Shown: positions 2,955-40,826 of the stretch, one piece after another
How positions within the stretch are numbered: the stretch's first letter is position 1
Layout of the letters: each line of letters opens with the position of its first letter
Virus record (IMG/VR): IMGVR_UViG_3300034159_000029
Span: 1-40,826 of that record
Source of the DNA: a virus
Direction: 5' to 3' (one strand)
DNA: 40,826 bases
Notes under the pieces: model-generated
The model's database searches: none
Told to the model about the DNA's origin: nothing
Seen by the model: the letters and a program-made list of their open reading frames with translations, nothing else
Program-made: the position numbers and the translations under genes

Positions 2955-4501
2955 CACTACGCCCGCCCCAAGCCATTCTACAAGCCACCTGTTTAGATAT
3001 CCTAAACGGTAGCAACTTAAATAAAATAATCGCCGACGTTGCCCCAGGCGGGGGAAAGTCTAAGCTCCCGGTTATTCTGGCAAGTCTTTTAATACCAAAA
3101 TTTGCAGACCGCCTACTATGGATTGTCCCCCGCAATTCCCTAAAGTACCAGGGCGAAGCCGAATTTCTTGACCCGAGAATGCCAACAGATCGAAGGATGA
3201 GGGCGGCCAATGGAAACGAAACCGACCCAGGCAGAGGCACAGACGGATATATTACCACCTATCAAGCAGTTGGAATGCTTCCGGAAATCCACCAGGACAG
3301 GGTATGCAAACGGCGCACGATTCTATTCCTTGATGAGCCACACCATGCCGCCGACGATTCAAGCTGGGGGGATGCTTTGGCCCCGATGATTGACGCCGCC
3401 GCCTTGGTAGTTTTCGCCTCGGGTACTTTTAGCCGGCATGATGGGGCTAAAATTCACGGCCTCGATTATAACGGCGCCTATGTCGATTTACGAAACCGCC
3501 CAGGTACTAAAGTAATCCGGTATAGCCGAAGCCAAGCCCTTGCCGATGGGTCTATTTTACCCGTAGAACTTCGGACAATAGACGGCGCTGCCGAATGGAT
3601 AAGCAAGGAAGGCGTAAAGCGAAAAATTGATTCCCTGCACAAGTCCGGGACTGACCGATCAGACGCCCTATTTTCTATGCTTCGTACCGAATACGCTTTT
3701 CAATTACTCGCCGCCTGCTTAGAACACTGGCAGAACCATCGTAAAGAATACCCAGCCGCTAAACTGCTTGTAGTCGCCCCGGATATCGAAACGGCAAAGG
3801 AATACCAGGGAAGGCTTGCAGGCAGGATCTTGTCAGAAATAGCCACCAGCGACGACGGGCCAGGAGCGCGGCGGGCAATAGCCGACTTCAAGCGCGGGGC
3901 CTTCCCGGCTTTGGTAACTGTCGGAATGGCCTACGAAGGTCTTAGCGTTCCCGAAATTACCCATATAGCCTGTCTAACCCAGATCAGATCCAAAGAATGG
4001 CTTGAACAAATGCAGGCCAGAGCTAACCGGGTAGCGCCTGGAAAACGGCAAGGCTGGTGTTTTGCTCCCAAAGATAGGGCTTTCTTAGACGCATGGGCGA
4101 AAATCGAAAGGGAGGCACTAACGCCGCTGGCCGACGATATGGGAGGCTTTGACTTTGGACCAAGCGCTGGCCCAGACAGTACGCCCCCGGAAGGCTTCGG
4201 CTTTGGCTTATCAGGAATCGAGCCGCTTTGGTCTTCGGCCCATGGTATAACGTCGGAACTTTCGGCGGTCCAGGCCCCGATACTTACAGCCTCCCAGTCT
4301 GAAAAAATACTTCTGGAAAATATCCGGGCAATCTATAACCGGGTAGTACTGGGCGCCCGTCCCGGATCTGGTCAGGCATGCATGACGATATACTCCCGGG
4401 CCTGTCGGTCAATACGGGACGTGTCACTAGAGGAATTAAACACCGAAGAATTGACAGCTGTTTGGATGAAACTACGCGAAGTTTTCGGAAAAAGATTGTA
4501 A
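2948..4501 (+). CDS. SF2 DEAD-like helicase/ATPase
   Basis: A 517-residue superfamily 2 helicase. Counting from ATG 2948: Walker A GGGKS (34-38), motif II DEPHH (129-133), motif III SGT (158-160), motif V-like VGMAYEGLSVP (325-335) and motif VI QMQARANRV (354-362) with arginine fingers. The N-terminal RPPQ acts like a Q motif. A GTG at 2939 would add three residues. The fold fits the DEAD-like restriction/recombination helicases found in phage replication regions. The C-terminal 130 residues are unassigned and may bind DNA. Overlaps the methyltransferase stop. Codon use is notably richer in GCC and CCG than the small genes after it. Confidence 0.85.
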   Translation: MLTLRPPQAILQATCLDILNGSNLNKIIADVAPGGGKSKLPVILASLLIPKFADRLLWIVPRNSLKYQGEAEFLDPRMPTDRRMRAANGNETDPGRGTDGYITTYQAVGMLPEIHQDRVCKRRTILFLDEPHHAADDSSWGDALAPMIDAAALVVFASGTFSRHDGAKIHGLDYNGAYVDLRNRPGTKVIRYSRSQALADGSILPVELRTIDGAAEWISKEGVKRKIDSLHKSGTDRSDALFSMLRTEYAFQLLAACLEHWQNHRKEYPAAKLLVVAPDIETAKEYQGRLAGRILSEIATSDDGPGARRAIADFKRGAFPALVTVGMAYEGLSVPEITHIACLTQIRSKEWLEQMQARANRVAPGKRQGWCFAPKDRAFLDAWAKIEREALTPLADDMGGFDFGPSAGPDSTPPEGFGFGLSGIEPLWSSAHGITSELSAVQAPILTASQSEKILLENIRAIYNRVVLGARPGSGQACMTIYSRACRSIRDVSLEELNTEELTAVWMKLREVFGKRL

Positions 4502-39049: not shown

Positions 39050-39414
39050 TGTGTCAACATGGATTAAAAATCACGTTCTTATTTGTTTGCTTGTCTCTTT
39101 TGGCATTGGGTTTATCGGCGCAGGAAGTATTGCCGCCAAACTCTACTTTGACGCCGAAAGAACAAGCTCTGCAATTATTGGACAACTTAGAGCAGAACAA
39201 CAACGAAGCGGAGAGCTACTCAATTCAATCGGTAGAGGAATTGCAAACTGTCTTGAACGAGAAAAGCGAGCTAAAGGGATCTTTGAAAAAAACCGCGTTA
39301 TACTCGGACAGCTTAGAGAAATCGTTGAATCTCTCCCAGACAATAAATAAAGTGGCTGTACCAGTAACTATTGTAGCAATCGTTACCGCTGTATTAATCG
39401 CCATTTTCAAGTAA
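39049..39414 (+). CDS. spanin-like protein with signal peptide and C-terminal membrane helix
   Basis: A 121-residue protein. The N-terminus LKITFLFVCLSLLALGLSAQ is a signal peptide; the middle is helical and Glu/Gln/Leu-rich (KEQALQLLDNLEQN, EELQTVLNEKSELKG); the end (VAVPVTIVAIVTAVLIAIF) is a transmembrane helix. This is the topology of a periplasm-spanning protein. GGGGGC lies about 5 nt before the ATG. A second frame, offset by two bases, runs inside it. Confidence 0.55.
   Translation: MCQHGLKITFLFVCLSLLALGLSAQEVLPPNSTLTPKEQALQLLDNLEQNNNEAESYSIQSVEELQTVLNEKSELKGSLKKTALYSDSLEKSLNLSQTINKVAVPVTIVAIVTAVLIAIFK
39051..39350 (+). CDS. overlapping-frame membrane coiled-coil protein (i-spanin-like; GTG start)
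   Basis: A 99-residue protein from GTG 39051, two bases after the ATG of its host gene (ATGTG). It has one N-terminal transmembrane helix (about 9-28, VLICLLVSFGIGFIGAGSIA) and a charged helical remainder (QLRAEQQRSGELLNS, REKRAKGIFEKNRVILGQLR), like Rz-type inner-membrane spanins. It lies wholly inside the other gene. Both frames show natural amino-acid composition. I infer an embedded spanin pair; only one may be real. Confidence 0.5.
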   Translation: MSTWIKNHVLICLLVSFGIGFIGAGSIAAKLYFDAERTSSAIIGQLRAEQQRSGELLNSIGRGIANCLEREKRAKGIFEKNRVILGQLREIVESLPDNK

Positions 39415-39435
39415 TAGACCAAAAAAACCCGAACG

Positions 39436-39466
39436 AAACCCGGCCAATTTAATCGCCGGGTTTTTT
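39436..39466 (+). terminator. intrinsic terminator ending the late operon
   Basis: AAACCCGGC (39436-39444), 10-nt loop, GCCGGGTTT (39455-39463) with a T-run through 39466. It is the strongest terminator in the window and lies 22 nt after the lysis genes. Confidence 0.9.
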
Positions 39467-39481
39467 ATTTGCATAAACCTC

Positions 39482-39510
39482 TTGACAATGGGTACAAGTG
39501 GACCCATACT
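39482..39510 (+). promoter_or_regulatory. sigma-70 promoter with inverted-repeat operator
   Basis: TTGACA (39482-39487), 17 nt, CATACT (39505-39510). Between them lies TGGGT...ACCCA (39489-39493 and 39502-39506) and the octamer GGGTACAA (39490-39497) shared with the promoter at 4510. Expected start near 39517, at the beginning of the structured RNA/tRNA region. Confidence 0.65.
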
Positions 39511-39673
39511 GCCATTGTTCTGTCGGGAATAGAAGAAGCGAAAGGAGGTTACTATGGTGCCCCACGGCCTGCGATACCGGCAGGCCAGCCCGAGTGGTAG
39601 CTAAGGGAAAAGGGACTGTATTTTAATGCTGAATAAAATGTTGTAAGTCCCCAGGAGCTCTGGGGACTCTTTC

Positions 39674-39801
39674 GGGGGCGTATTAGCTGAGACACTACGC
39701 GGGTGTTATGGGCAAGCTATGAAAGCAGAAATGCGAAGTCGAGGGCGTATCGCGTTGCCCGAGGTAATGGCGTACCGCAGGTTCGAATCCTGCCGCCTCC
39801 A
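39674..39801 (+). ncRNA. tRNA-like element with enlarged central domain
   Basis: GGGGGCG (39674-39680) pairs in all seven positions (one G-U) with CGCCTCC (39794-39800). A canonical T arm, GCAGG-TTCGAAT-CCTGC (39777-39793), stacks directly on it, and A39801 is in discriminator position. In a tRNA 41 to about 60 nt separate the 5' acceptor strand and T arm; here it is 96 nt, with its own helices (TAGCT/AGCTA, ACAC/GTGT, a GAAA tetraloop at 39725-39734, GGTA/TACC). No anticodon arm is evident. Either an intron-bearing tRNA, a tRNA mimic, or part of the larger RNA. Confidence 0.5.
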
Positions 39802-40189
39802 TCTATGCGCGACATCCCCTTTATGGGTAGCGTTTGCTGGCTAATGATGTCAATGCCAGACGGGTAGGGCATCACCTTGTAGAGATTGGCCGGAACTATC
39901 CATGGCTGACTAAGATTGTCTAAACGTTAAATAGTTGGGAGTGAGGCCGCAAGGGTAAGGCGGCAGACAAGTTTAAGCGATCAACGCCGTCCAAGTACGT
40001 TAAAAGATCGCCTCCGGGTCAACGCCGGACACTTCCAAGTAGCCTAATCGCTTAATGCAATGGAAAAGCAGCCGAATAGCGCGATAGACTGCCGGAAATT
40101 GTTGTTAGTTGATTTTTGACGAAGGTGCAAGAAATCGTCCAAATGTAGCCGACGGGTAAGCATTCAGCCGGTTCAAGTCCGGCTTCGTG

Positions 40190-40262
40190 GTGGTTGTCGC
40201 CCAGTTGGTAGGGCGCTTGATTGTGAATCAAGTTGTCGCGGGTTCGATTCCCGCCAACCACA
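40190..40262 (+). tRNA. tRNA-His (GTG anticodon)
   Basis: A complete cloverleaf: acceptor GTGGTTG/CAACCAC, D arm around GCCC...GGGC, anticodon stem CTTGA/TCAAG with loop TTGTGAA (anticodon GTG), T arm GCGGG-TTCGATT-CCCGC. G at 40189 can serve as the extra G-1 of tRNA-His. CCA is not encoded. It lies inside a longer structured non-coding region. Confidence 0.93.
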
Positions 40263-40364
40263 AAAACCGTGGATCGGTTAAATACTGAAAAACGCTTGAT
40301 AAAATCAAGGCAGTTCAGTTCGTAATGTAAGCCCGTATTAAGCCGGTACGGAACCCGGCAATCT

Positions 40365-40436
40365 TGGGGTATAGCACAGTGGTAGTGCAGGGGCCTCATA
40401 AGCCCTTGGTCATAGGTTCAAATCCTATTACCCCGA
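40365..40436 (+). tRNA. tRNA with CAT anticodon (Met-type)
   Basis: Acceptor TGGGGTA/TACCCCG (first pair U-G), D arm GCAC-AGTGGTA-GTGC, anticodon stem GGGGC/GCCCT with loop CTCATAA (anticodon CAT), T arm ATAGG-TTCAAAT-CCTAT. The anticodon can be elongator Met, initiator Met or Ile2 (lysidine). The mismatched or wobble first pair is a feature of bacterial initiators, but three G-C pairs above the anticodon are lacking. CCA is not encoded. Confidence 0.9.
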
Positions 40437-40512
40437 ATCCTTGCCCGTATGGGCTGGAACGCATGGACAATCGCCAGGTCAGAAATGGCCGGGCACTTTT
40501 GAGGCCGAAATC

Positions 40513-40707
40513 ATGCTTTCAAAATATTACGAACTTGGAATTCAGATTGACATTAACCTGCATAAATTAAAAAAAATGGACCCGACGATATTAGCCAGCC
40601 AATTGCTTTTGGAAACTTCAGACCTTTTGCTGGAACGTTACAAAGTATCCAATCAAGGAATAAAGGAAGGTGGTATCCATGTCTTTGAATATTCCCCCCA
40701 GAGTTGA
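40513..40707 (+). CDS. hypothetical protein (64 aa)
   Basis: A helical protein (LGIQIDINLHKLKKMDPTIL, ASQLLLETSDLLLERYK) of unknown function. ATG 40513 has GAGG 10 nt upstream; earlier in-frame starts lie in the tRNA-flanking hairpins. It overlaps the next gene by 29 bp. It is the first gene after the RNA region and probably shares the promoter at 39482. Confidence 0.55.
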   Translation: MLSKYYELGIQIDINLHKLKKMDPTILASQLLLETSDLLLERYKVSNQGIKEGGIHVFEYSPQS

Positions 40708-40826
40708 AAAACCAAAGAAGCCGGACTATAAAATCCGTCCCGGTTTTACCGATGACGAGCTGGAAGATTTTCAGGCGTTCTGTATTAAACACGATTTACC
40801 GCCTGGACGGTTTACCCGTCGGGTTT
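40679..40826 (+). CDS. N-terminal part of ribbon-helix-helix-like protein crossing the contig junction
   Basis: ATG 40679 follows GGAAGG at 10 nt. The frame runs off the end at 40826 and continues at bases 1-84, giving about 66 residues. The start is Pro/Lys-rich (IPPRVEKPKKPDYKIRPGF); then TDDELEDFQAFCIKHDLPPG and FTRRVLLNAI form a helix-turn-helix that resembles small RHH or relaxosome-type DNA-binding proteins. It could be an early regulator at the head of the 81-4501 operon. The two copies of the junction differ at one residue (Arg in this copy, Leu at the left end). Confidence 0.65.
   Translation, partial: MSLNIPPRVEKPKKPDYKIRPGFTDDELEDFQAFCIKHDLPPGRFTRRV
40796..40826. repeat. terminal redundancy, right copy
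   Basis: Matches 1-31 with one mismatch (G40809 against T14). See the left copy. Confidence 0.85.

Follow-up and report, generated by a model that had tools for sequence, protein, structure and literature searches.

Positions 39482-40440 of the phage genome studied here are non-coding, with a tRNA-His and a tRNA-Met inside, and the question raised by this locus is what kind of RNA, or RNAs, it specifies. An initial annotation read it as a large ornate phage RNA with the tRNA-His embedded in it and likened it to GOLLD and ROOL. The window, i.e., the whole stretch of DNA that was analyzed, is a virus record of 40,826 bp. Its ends (positions 1-31 and 40796-40826) form a 31-nt near-repeat with one mismatch, so that the genome is probably circular and complete; a 66-aa reading frame runs across the joined ends. 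The genome encodes a terminase, a portal, a DUF3383 protein, a tape measure protein, a replicative helicase, a ResIII helicase and a large calcineurin-like phosphoesterase, which we take to be SbcC-like. The locus is situated 3' of the terminator that ends the last of the rightward late genes, and ahead of the early genes. Its features, read from the sequence and all on the plus strand, are the following:

39436-39466, plus strand: intrinsic terminator with a 9-bp stem (39436-39444/39455-39463), a 10-nt loop and a T-run, which closes the upstream lysis/late genes.
39482-39510, plus strand: putative sigma-70-type promoter TTGACA-17-CATACT, a consensus match at 10 of 12 positions with a 17-nt spacer.
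39541-39604, plus strand: Shine-Dalgarno sequence AAAGGAGG followed by a 16-codon ORF (MVPHGLRYRQASPSGS; ORF at 39554-39604).
39646-39668, plus strand: perfect 9-bp hairpin AGTCCCCAG-GAGCT-CTGGGGACT just 5' of module A, with a pairing probability of 0.86-1.0.
39674-39801, plus strand: tRNA-like module A, 128 nt, with acceptor GGGGGCG/CGCCTCC (39674-39680 with 39794-39800) and T-arm at 39777-39793 (GCAGGTTCGAATCCTGC).
39973-40055, plus strand: perfect 9-bp helix TTAAGCGAT/ATCGCTTAA (39973-39981/40047-40055) enclosing 65 nt with a small hairpin TCCGG-GTCAACG-CCGGA.
40117-40191, plus strand: tRNA-like module B with a perfect T-arm at 40167-40183 (GCCGGTTCAAGTCCGGC), abutting and overlapping the 5' end of tRNA-His.
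40190-40262, plus strand: canonical tRNA-His (GTG), 73.4 bits, with G at -1 (40189) and A73.
40364-40437, plus strand: canonical tRNA-Met (CAT), 69.3 bits.

The terminator, the promoter, the embedded tRNA-His and the two 9-bp helices had all been described in the initial annotation and are found here, the helices exactly where they had been placed. Its statement that the stretch contains no credible gene also holds, since between 39415 and 40440 there is no supported ORF except the 16-codon one. This short ORF, located just 3' of the promoter and preceded by a strong Shine-Dalgarno sequence, possibly encodes a leader peptide, and transcription is expected to start near 39517. The tRNA-His has the G at -1, but its position 73 is an A, where C73 is usual in bacteria. 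No CCA is encoded.

In our reading, to which we give a probability of about one half, this is a phage tRNA locus in which tRNA-His and tRNA-Met are accompanied by A and B, two tRNA-like modules that do not decode and that may act as decoys for tRNA factors or as parts of regulatory RNA. The modules came from a scan of the whole 40,826-nt genome, on both strands, for T-arms adjoining a possible acceptor stem. The scan yields exactly four T-arms, those of A, B, His and Met, all in the locus and all on the plus strand; the remaining 39.5 kb and the minus strand contain no strict T-arm. The T-loop motifs noticed earlier are therefore real: two strict T-arms besides those of the tRNAs stand against 0.00047 expected in 671 nt. 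Neither ARAGORN nor the RF00005 model calls A or B as a cloverleaf, both returning His and Met only, and the same two tRNAs are all that Rfam reports at gathering thresholds.

The acceptor of module A consists of seven pairs, including one G.U, and its T-arm, like that of B, is perfect with a consensus loop, while the interior in the predicted fold contains extra hairpins and no recognizable D or anticodon arm. The pair G3.U70 and A73 are both present; G3.U70 with A73 constitutes the alanine identity, and the module might receive alanine although it has no anticodon. When 39600-39900 is folded locally, the acceptor and T-stem have a probability of 0.93-1.0, but it drops to ~0.01 when 39519-40190 is folded whole because these stems are outcompeted, so that A should fold as drawn only if it is formed locally or excised. 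The 5' acceptor partner of A is suggestive only (chance p=0.11). The 5' partner of B, TGACGAA, makes six of seven pairs, no better than chance (p=0.86); the 20-nt T-arm segment of B is 95% identical in two other phages, G042 and G044.

When Rfam was searched with permissive filters, module A alone stood out among the non-tRNA parts, through a sub-threshold match to the tmRNA model RF00023 (29.2 bits against the curated cut-off of 47). The likeness consists in an acceptor and T-arm without an anticodon arm and in the presence of G3.U70 and A73, the determinants of charging with alanine. However, only the acceptor and T-arm align, the mRNA-like domain is absent from the match, A has 128 nt against ~370 model positions of which ~330 are deleted in the match, and no tag reading frame is recognized in A. 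A tmRNA identity was rejected on these grounds.

Relatives of the genome carry comparable elements. In phages that share the ResIII helicase there are ~40 strict T-arms against 1.6 expected; in nearly every member of the genome's own group they lie on the helicase strand, and about half of the ~40 have no tRNA call. Oversized modules with 6-7 acceptor pairs are found in G042 (157 nt, 7/7 pairs), L195 (118 nt, 7/7 pairs, and a second one of 94 nt), L104 (116 nt), L171 (139 nt), L167 (101 nt), G040 (102 nt) and G036 (82 nt). Some of them retain a normal D arm and a 12-30-nt anticodon loop (30 nt in the 94-nt module of L195); in others both the D and anticodon arms are replaced. Over all orphan T-arms the combined p for acceptor partners is ~0.002. 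The idea that every orphan T-arm has a significant partner was abandoned, as only some do individually. For the locus as such, searches by exact patterns and via the neighboring lysis protein gave no close relative, the SbcC-like protein reached at best 43%, and blastn against 50,697 phages, run with the whole region and with A by itself, returned T-arm/tRNA matches only. The nearest relatives by terminase (76%) are contigs of 5-8 kb that lack the tRNA-module locus.

Orphan T-arms also occur in four tRNA arrays of control phages, where they make up 3/22, 5/27, 2/15 and 0/20 of the T-arms (0-19%), and hence the phenomenon is not confined to the lineage of the genome. Three groups of phages illustrate it. 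The T5-like Klebsiella phages of the genus Sugarlandvirus contain an unannotated 132-nt tRNA-like module that is shared by 72 records, Proteus phage PM135 among them (positions 23473-23604 of L199, Klebsiella phage SEL21; alignment A2). It consists of an acceptor, a D-arm with an inserted hairpin, an enlarged anticodon arm and a T-arm. In an alignment of only six sequences, double changes are seen at 9 of its 38 pairs, compared with 3.1 in shuffles (0/500) and 0-1 in slid controls, and this module is clearly kept by selection. Streptomyces phages contain a 150-nt orphan T-arm element (positions 21094-21243 of L200, Streptomyces phage Annadreamy, with its neighbors; alignment A3) that is conserved at ~75%; these elements have a repeated motif GGGTCGGATG...GGTTATCT in common and are conserved among Stanwilliamsviridae. 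In most records the orphan T-arm elements of these phages lie outside annotated features. In streptococcal prophages (L217, L218, L221-L227) a mosaic non-coding locus of 360-910 nt follows an ArpU-like gene (often annotated FIG01114733; the name ArpU occurs in one record). It contains one to four T-arms, which belong to canonical tRNAs, 101-nt modules and acceptor/T-arm minihelices of 42-47 nt whose linker carries a D-loop-like GG. The 5' part of the locus is conserved, a conserved terminator ends it in several phages, and all of it except a few tRNAs is unannotated. In the stems of the minihelices, 11 of 13 pairs have changed on both sides and pairing is maintained at 97%, and the minihelices are clearly kept by selection; as the eight sequences compared are partly paralogous, this covariation demonstrates a shared fold and not eight independent lineages.

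The main rival to our reading takes A and B to be tRNA genes in decay, i.e., insertion-ridden, functionless remnants of what were once normal phage tRNAs. Canonical tRNAs adjoin both modules, B has only a T-arm to show and overlaps the 5' end of tRNA-His, the orphan fraction of up to 19% in control arrays could be the residue of the same process, and the A-like interiors in the relatives have neither length nor sequence in common. Yet the replaced interior of A is still framed by a seven-pair acceptor that includes G3.U70 and by a perfect T-arm, and the comparable elements of other phages display compensatory change. The presence of degraded tRNA genes alone, which the initial annotation had named as a finding that would refute its view, is in this respect not shown. 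Decay is most plausible for B; for the two modules together we regard it as rather unlikely.

The reading that the initial annotation had put forward, one large non-coding RNA of 850-900 nt with embedded tRNAs and a GOLLD/ROOL-like function, appears improbable. Its size, its location in a phage, its tRNAs and its promoter all speak for it, and so does the excess of long helices: Watson-Crick helices of 9 bp or more within 120 nt number two, against a shuffle mean of 0.16, and none of 100 shuffles reaches two. The streptococcal prophage locus, with its modules, conserved 5' part and terminator, offers a comparable arrangement. GOLLD and ROOL themselves are found near phage tRNA islands, and tRNAs are found within the GOLLD linker (PMC12286853), so that the analogy of place, a large non-coding phage stretch beside tRNAs, is fair. 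Membership nevertheless fails. The covariance models of GOLLD, ROOL and group I/II introns, which the initial annotation had proposed to run together with that of tmRNA, give no match up to E=5 within 39400-40826. An ornate global fold is not supported either, as the minimum free energy of 39490-40189 (700 nt) has a z-score of -0.11 relative to shuffles, and pairing most of it is what any such sequence allows. By parts, the z-scores are -0.08 for the A-B spacer, -1.05 for the leader, -1.44 for module A and -3.88 for tRNA-His, and the 39973/40055 helix has a pairing probability of ~0 in the full-length predicted ensemble. Finally, the modules are separable by genes: in each of G042 and L195, two modules are set apart by a protein-coding ORF, so that the modules are independent units rather than domains of a single giant RNA. 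A VRR-NUC identity considered for the ORF of G042 was dropped after Pfam gave no confirmation. The initial annotation was thus largely right in its observation and not in its assignment of class.

A and B could also be decoding tRNAs with unusual insertions in the D loop, anticodon loop or variable arm, or with a mini-intron, a reading that we hold to be very improbable. Modules with a normal D arm, a 5-bp anticodon stem and a 12-30-nt loop do exist (L195_5203, G040), and A has the alanine identity pair; it could be drawn as tRNA-Ala(CGC), with G3.U70, A73 and a stem GGGCG/TGCCC around TATCGCGT. However, the predicted fold of A puts an 11-bp hairpin in place of the anticodon arm, its interior is ~50 nt too long, and no splicing signal or intron family was found; the tRNA-Ala(CGC) drawing was set aside. 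The remaining possibility, that the 3' halves formed by T-arm and acceptor represent attP sites, copied from a host tRNA gene at which the phage would integrate, is suggested by tRNA-like 3' ends beside the integrase gene in the relatives G037 and G039 but is rejected for this genome, since no integrase, resolvase or tyrosine/serine recombinase was found in its 40.8 kb and since A also has a 5' acceptor strand and the locus holds two modules together with two whole tRNAs. In the temperate relatives themselves (G037, and G039 with its 78-nt element), the tRNA 3' ends beside the integrase are probably attP. The element of G037 (L152, reverse complement, 3774-3853) resembles tRNA-Thr(CGT), has a poor D arm and lies between the lysis genes and the integrase gene.

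If the locus does carry non-decoding tRNA mimics, its expression can be pictured as follows. One promoter would give a single transcript containing tRNA-His, tRNA-Met, A and B together with a poorly structured leader and spacer. By analogy with His and Met, host RNase P and RNase Z would probably excise module A, to which CCA would then be added. A would copy the half of tRNA that is seen by tRNA enzymes, the acceptor stacked on the T-arm, with hairpins replacing the D and anticodon arms, whereas B would contribute a perfect T-arm only. In this way A may display the surface used by RNase P, the CCA enzyme, elongation factor Tu and acceptor-reading enzymes and would offer no recognizable anticodon arm to cut. 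The modules would then occupy host factors that bind or attack tRNA, without decoding codons, and may serve as decoys against tRNA-targeting defenses or as the tRNA-like part of a regulatory RNA.

Several known systems can be set beside the locus. The bacteriophage T4 tRNA cluster gives rise to unexplained stable non-tRNA species, RNA C and RNA D, which are processed from the cluster and would be comparable to the present modules if these yield stable products. Phage tRNAs that evade tRNA-cleaving defenses are documented (PMC10264068, PMC11555353) and, like His and Met here, belong to canonical tRNAs clustered on one strand, but those tRNAs decode and rely on anticodon-loop changes, whereas A and B have no recognizable anticodon arm. 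Acceptor minihelices are modified by FaRel2, one of the toxSAS toxins, a class that has been linked to immunity against phages (PMC11559606). An RNA resembling a minihelix could thus tie up an enzyme of this kind. In Bacillus cereus, a pseudo-tRNA, tRNA-Other, acts within a larger regulatory RNA (PMC3399842); it too is a non-decoding tRNA-like element present in longer transcripts and associated with a mobile element, but it is single and near-canonical, whereas here there are several modules, A is oversized, and the setting is a phage tRNA locus.

More broadly, and only tentatively, it may be proposed that unrelated phages carry widespread, unannotated non-decoding tRNA mimics, from minihelices of 42 nt to elements of ~160 nt with replaced interiors, in the niche of tRNA genes, that these are selected decoys or regulators directed at host factors acting on tRNA, and that this uncultured phage is one of the members. 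We found no description of such module arrays in the literature, of which our coverage was partial, and this absence speaks only weakly for novelty. The reason why phages carry tRNAs has long been sought, and the answers current today concern decoding tRNAs. Codon supply cannot explain acceptor/T-arm modules without a recognizable anticodon arm, and such modules would be missed by tRNA finders and gene callers alike. They point to RNA decoys of tRNA-targeting immunity as a testable idea, and the streptococcal and Klebsiella/Proteus examples are open to tests in cultured phages.
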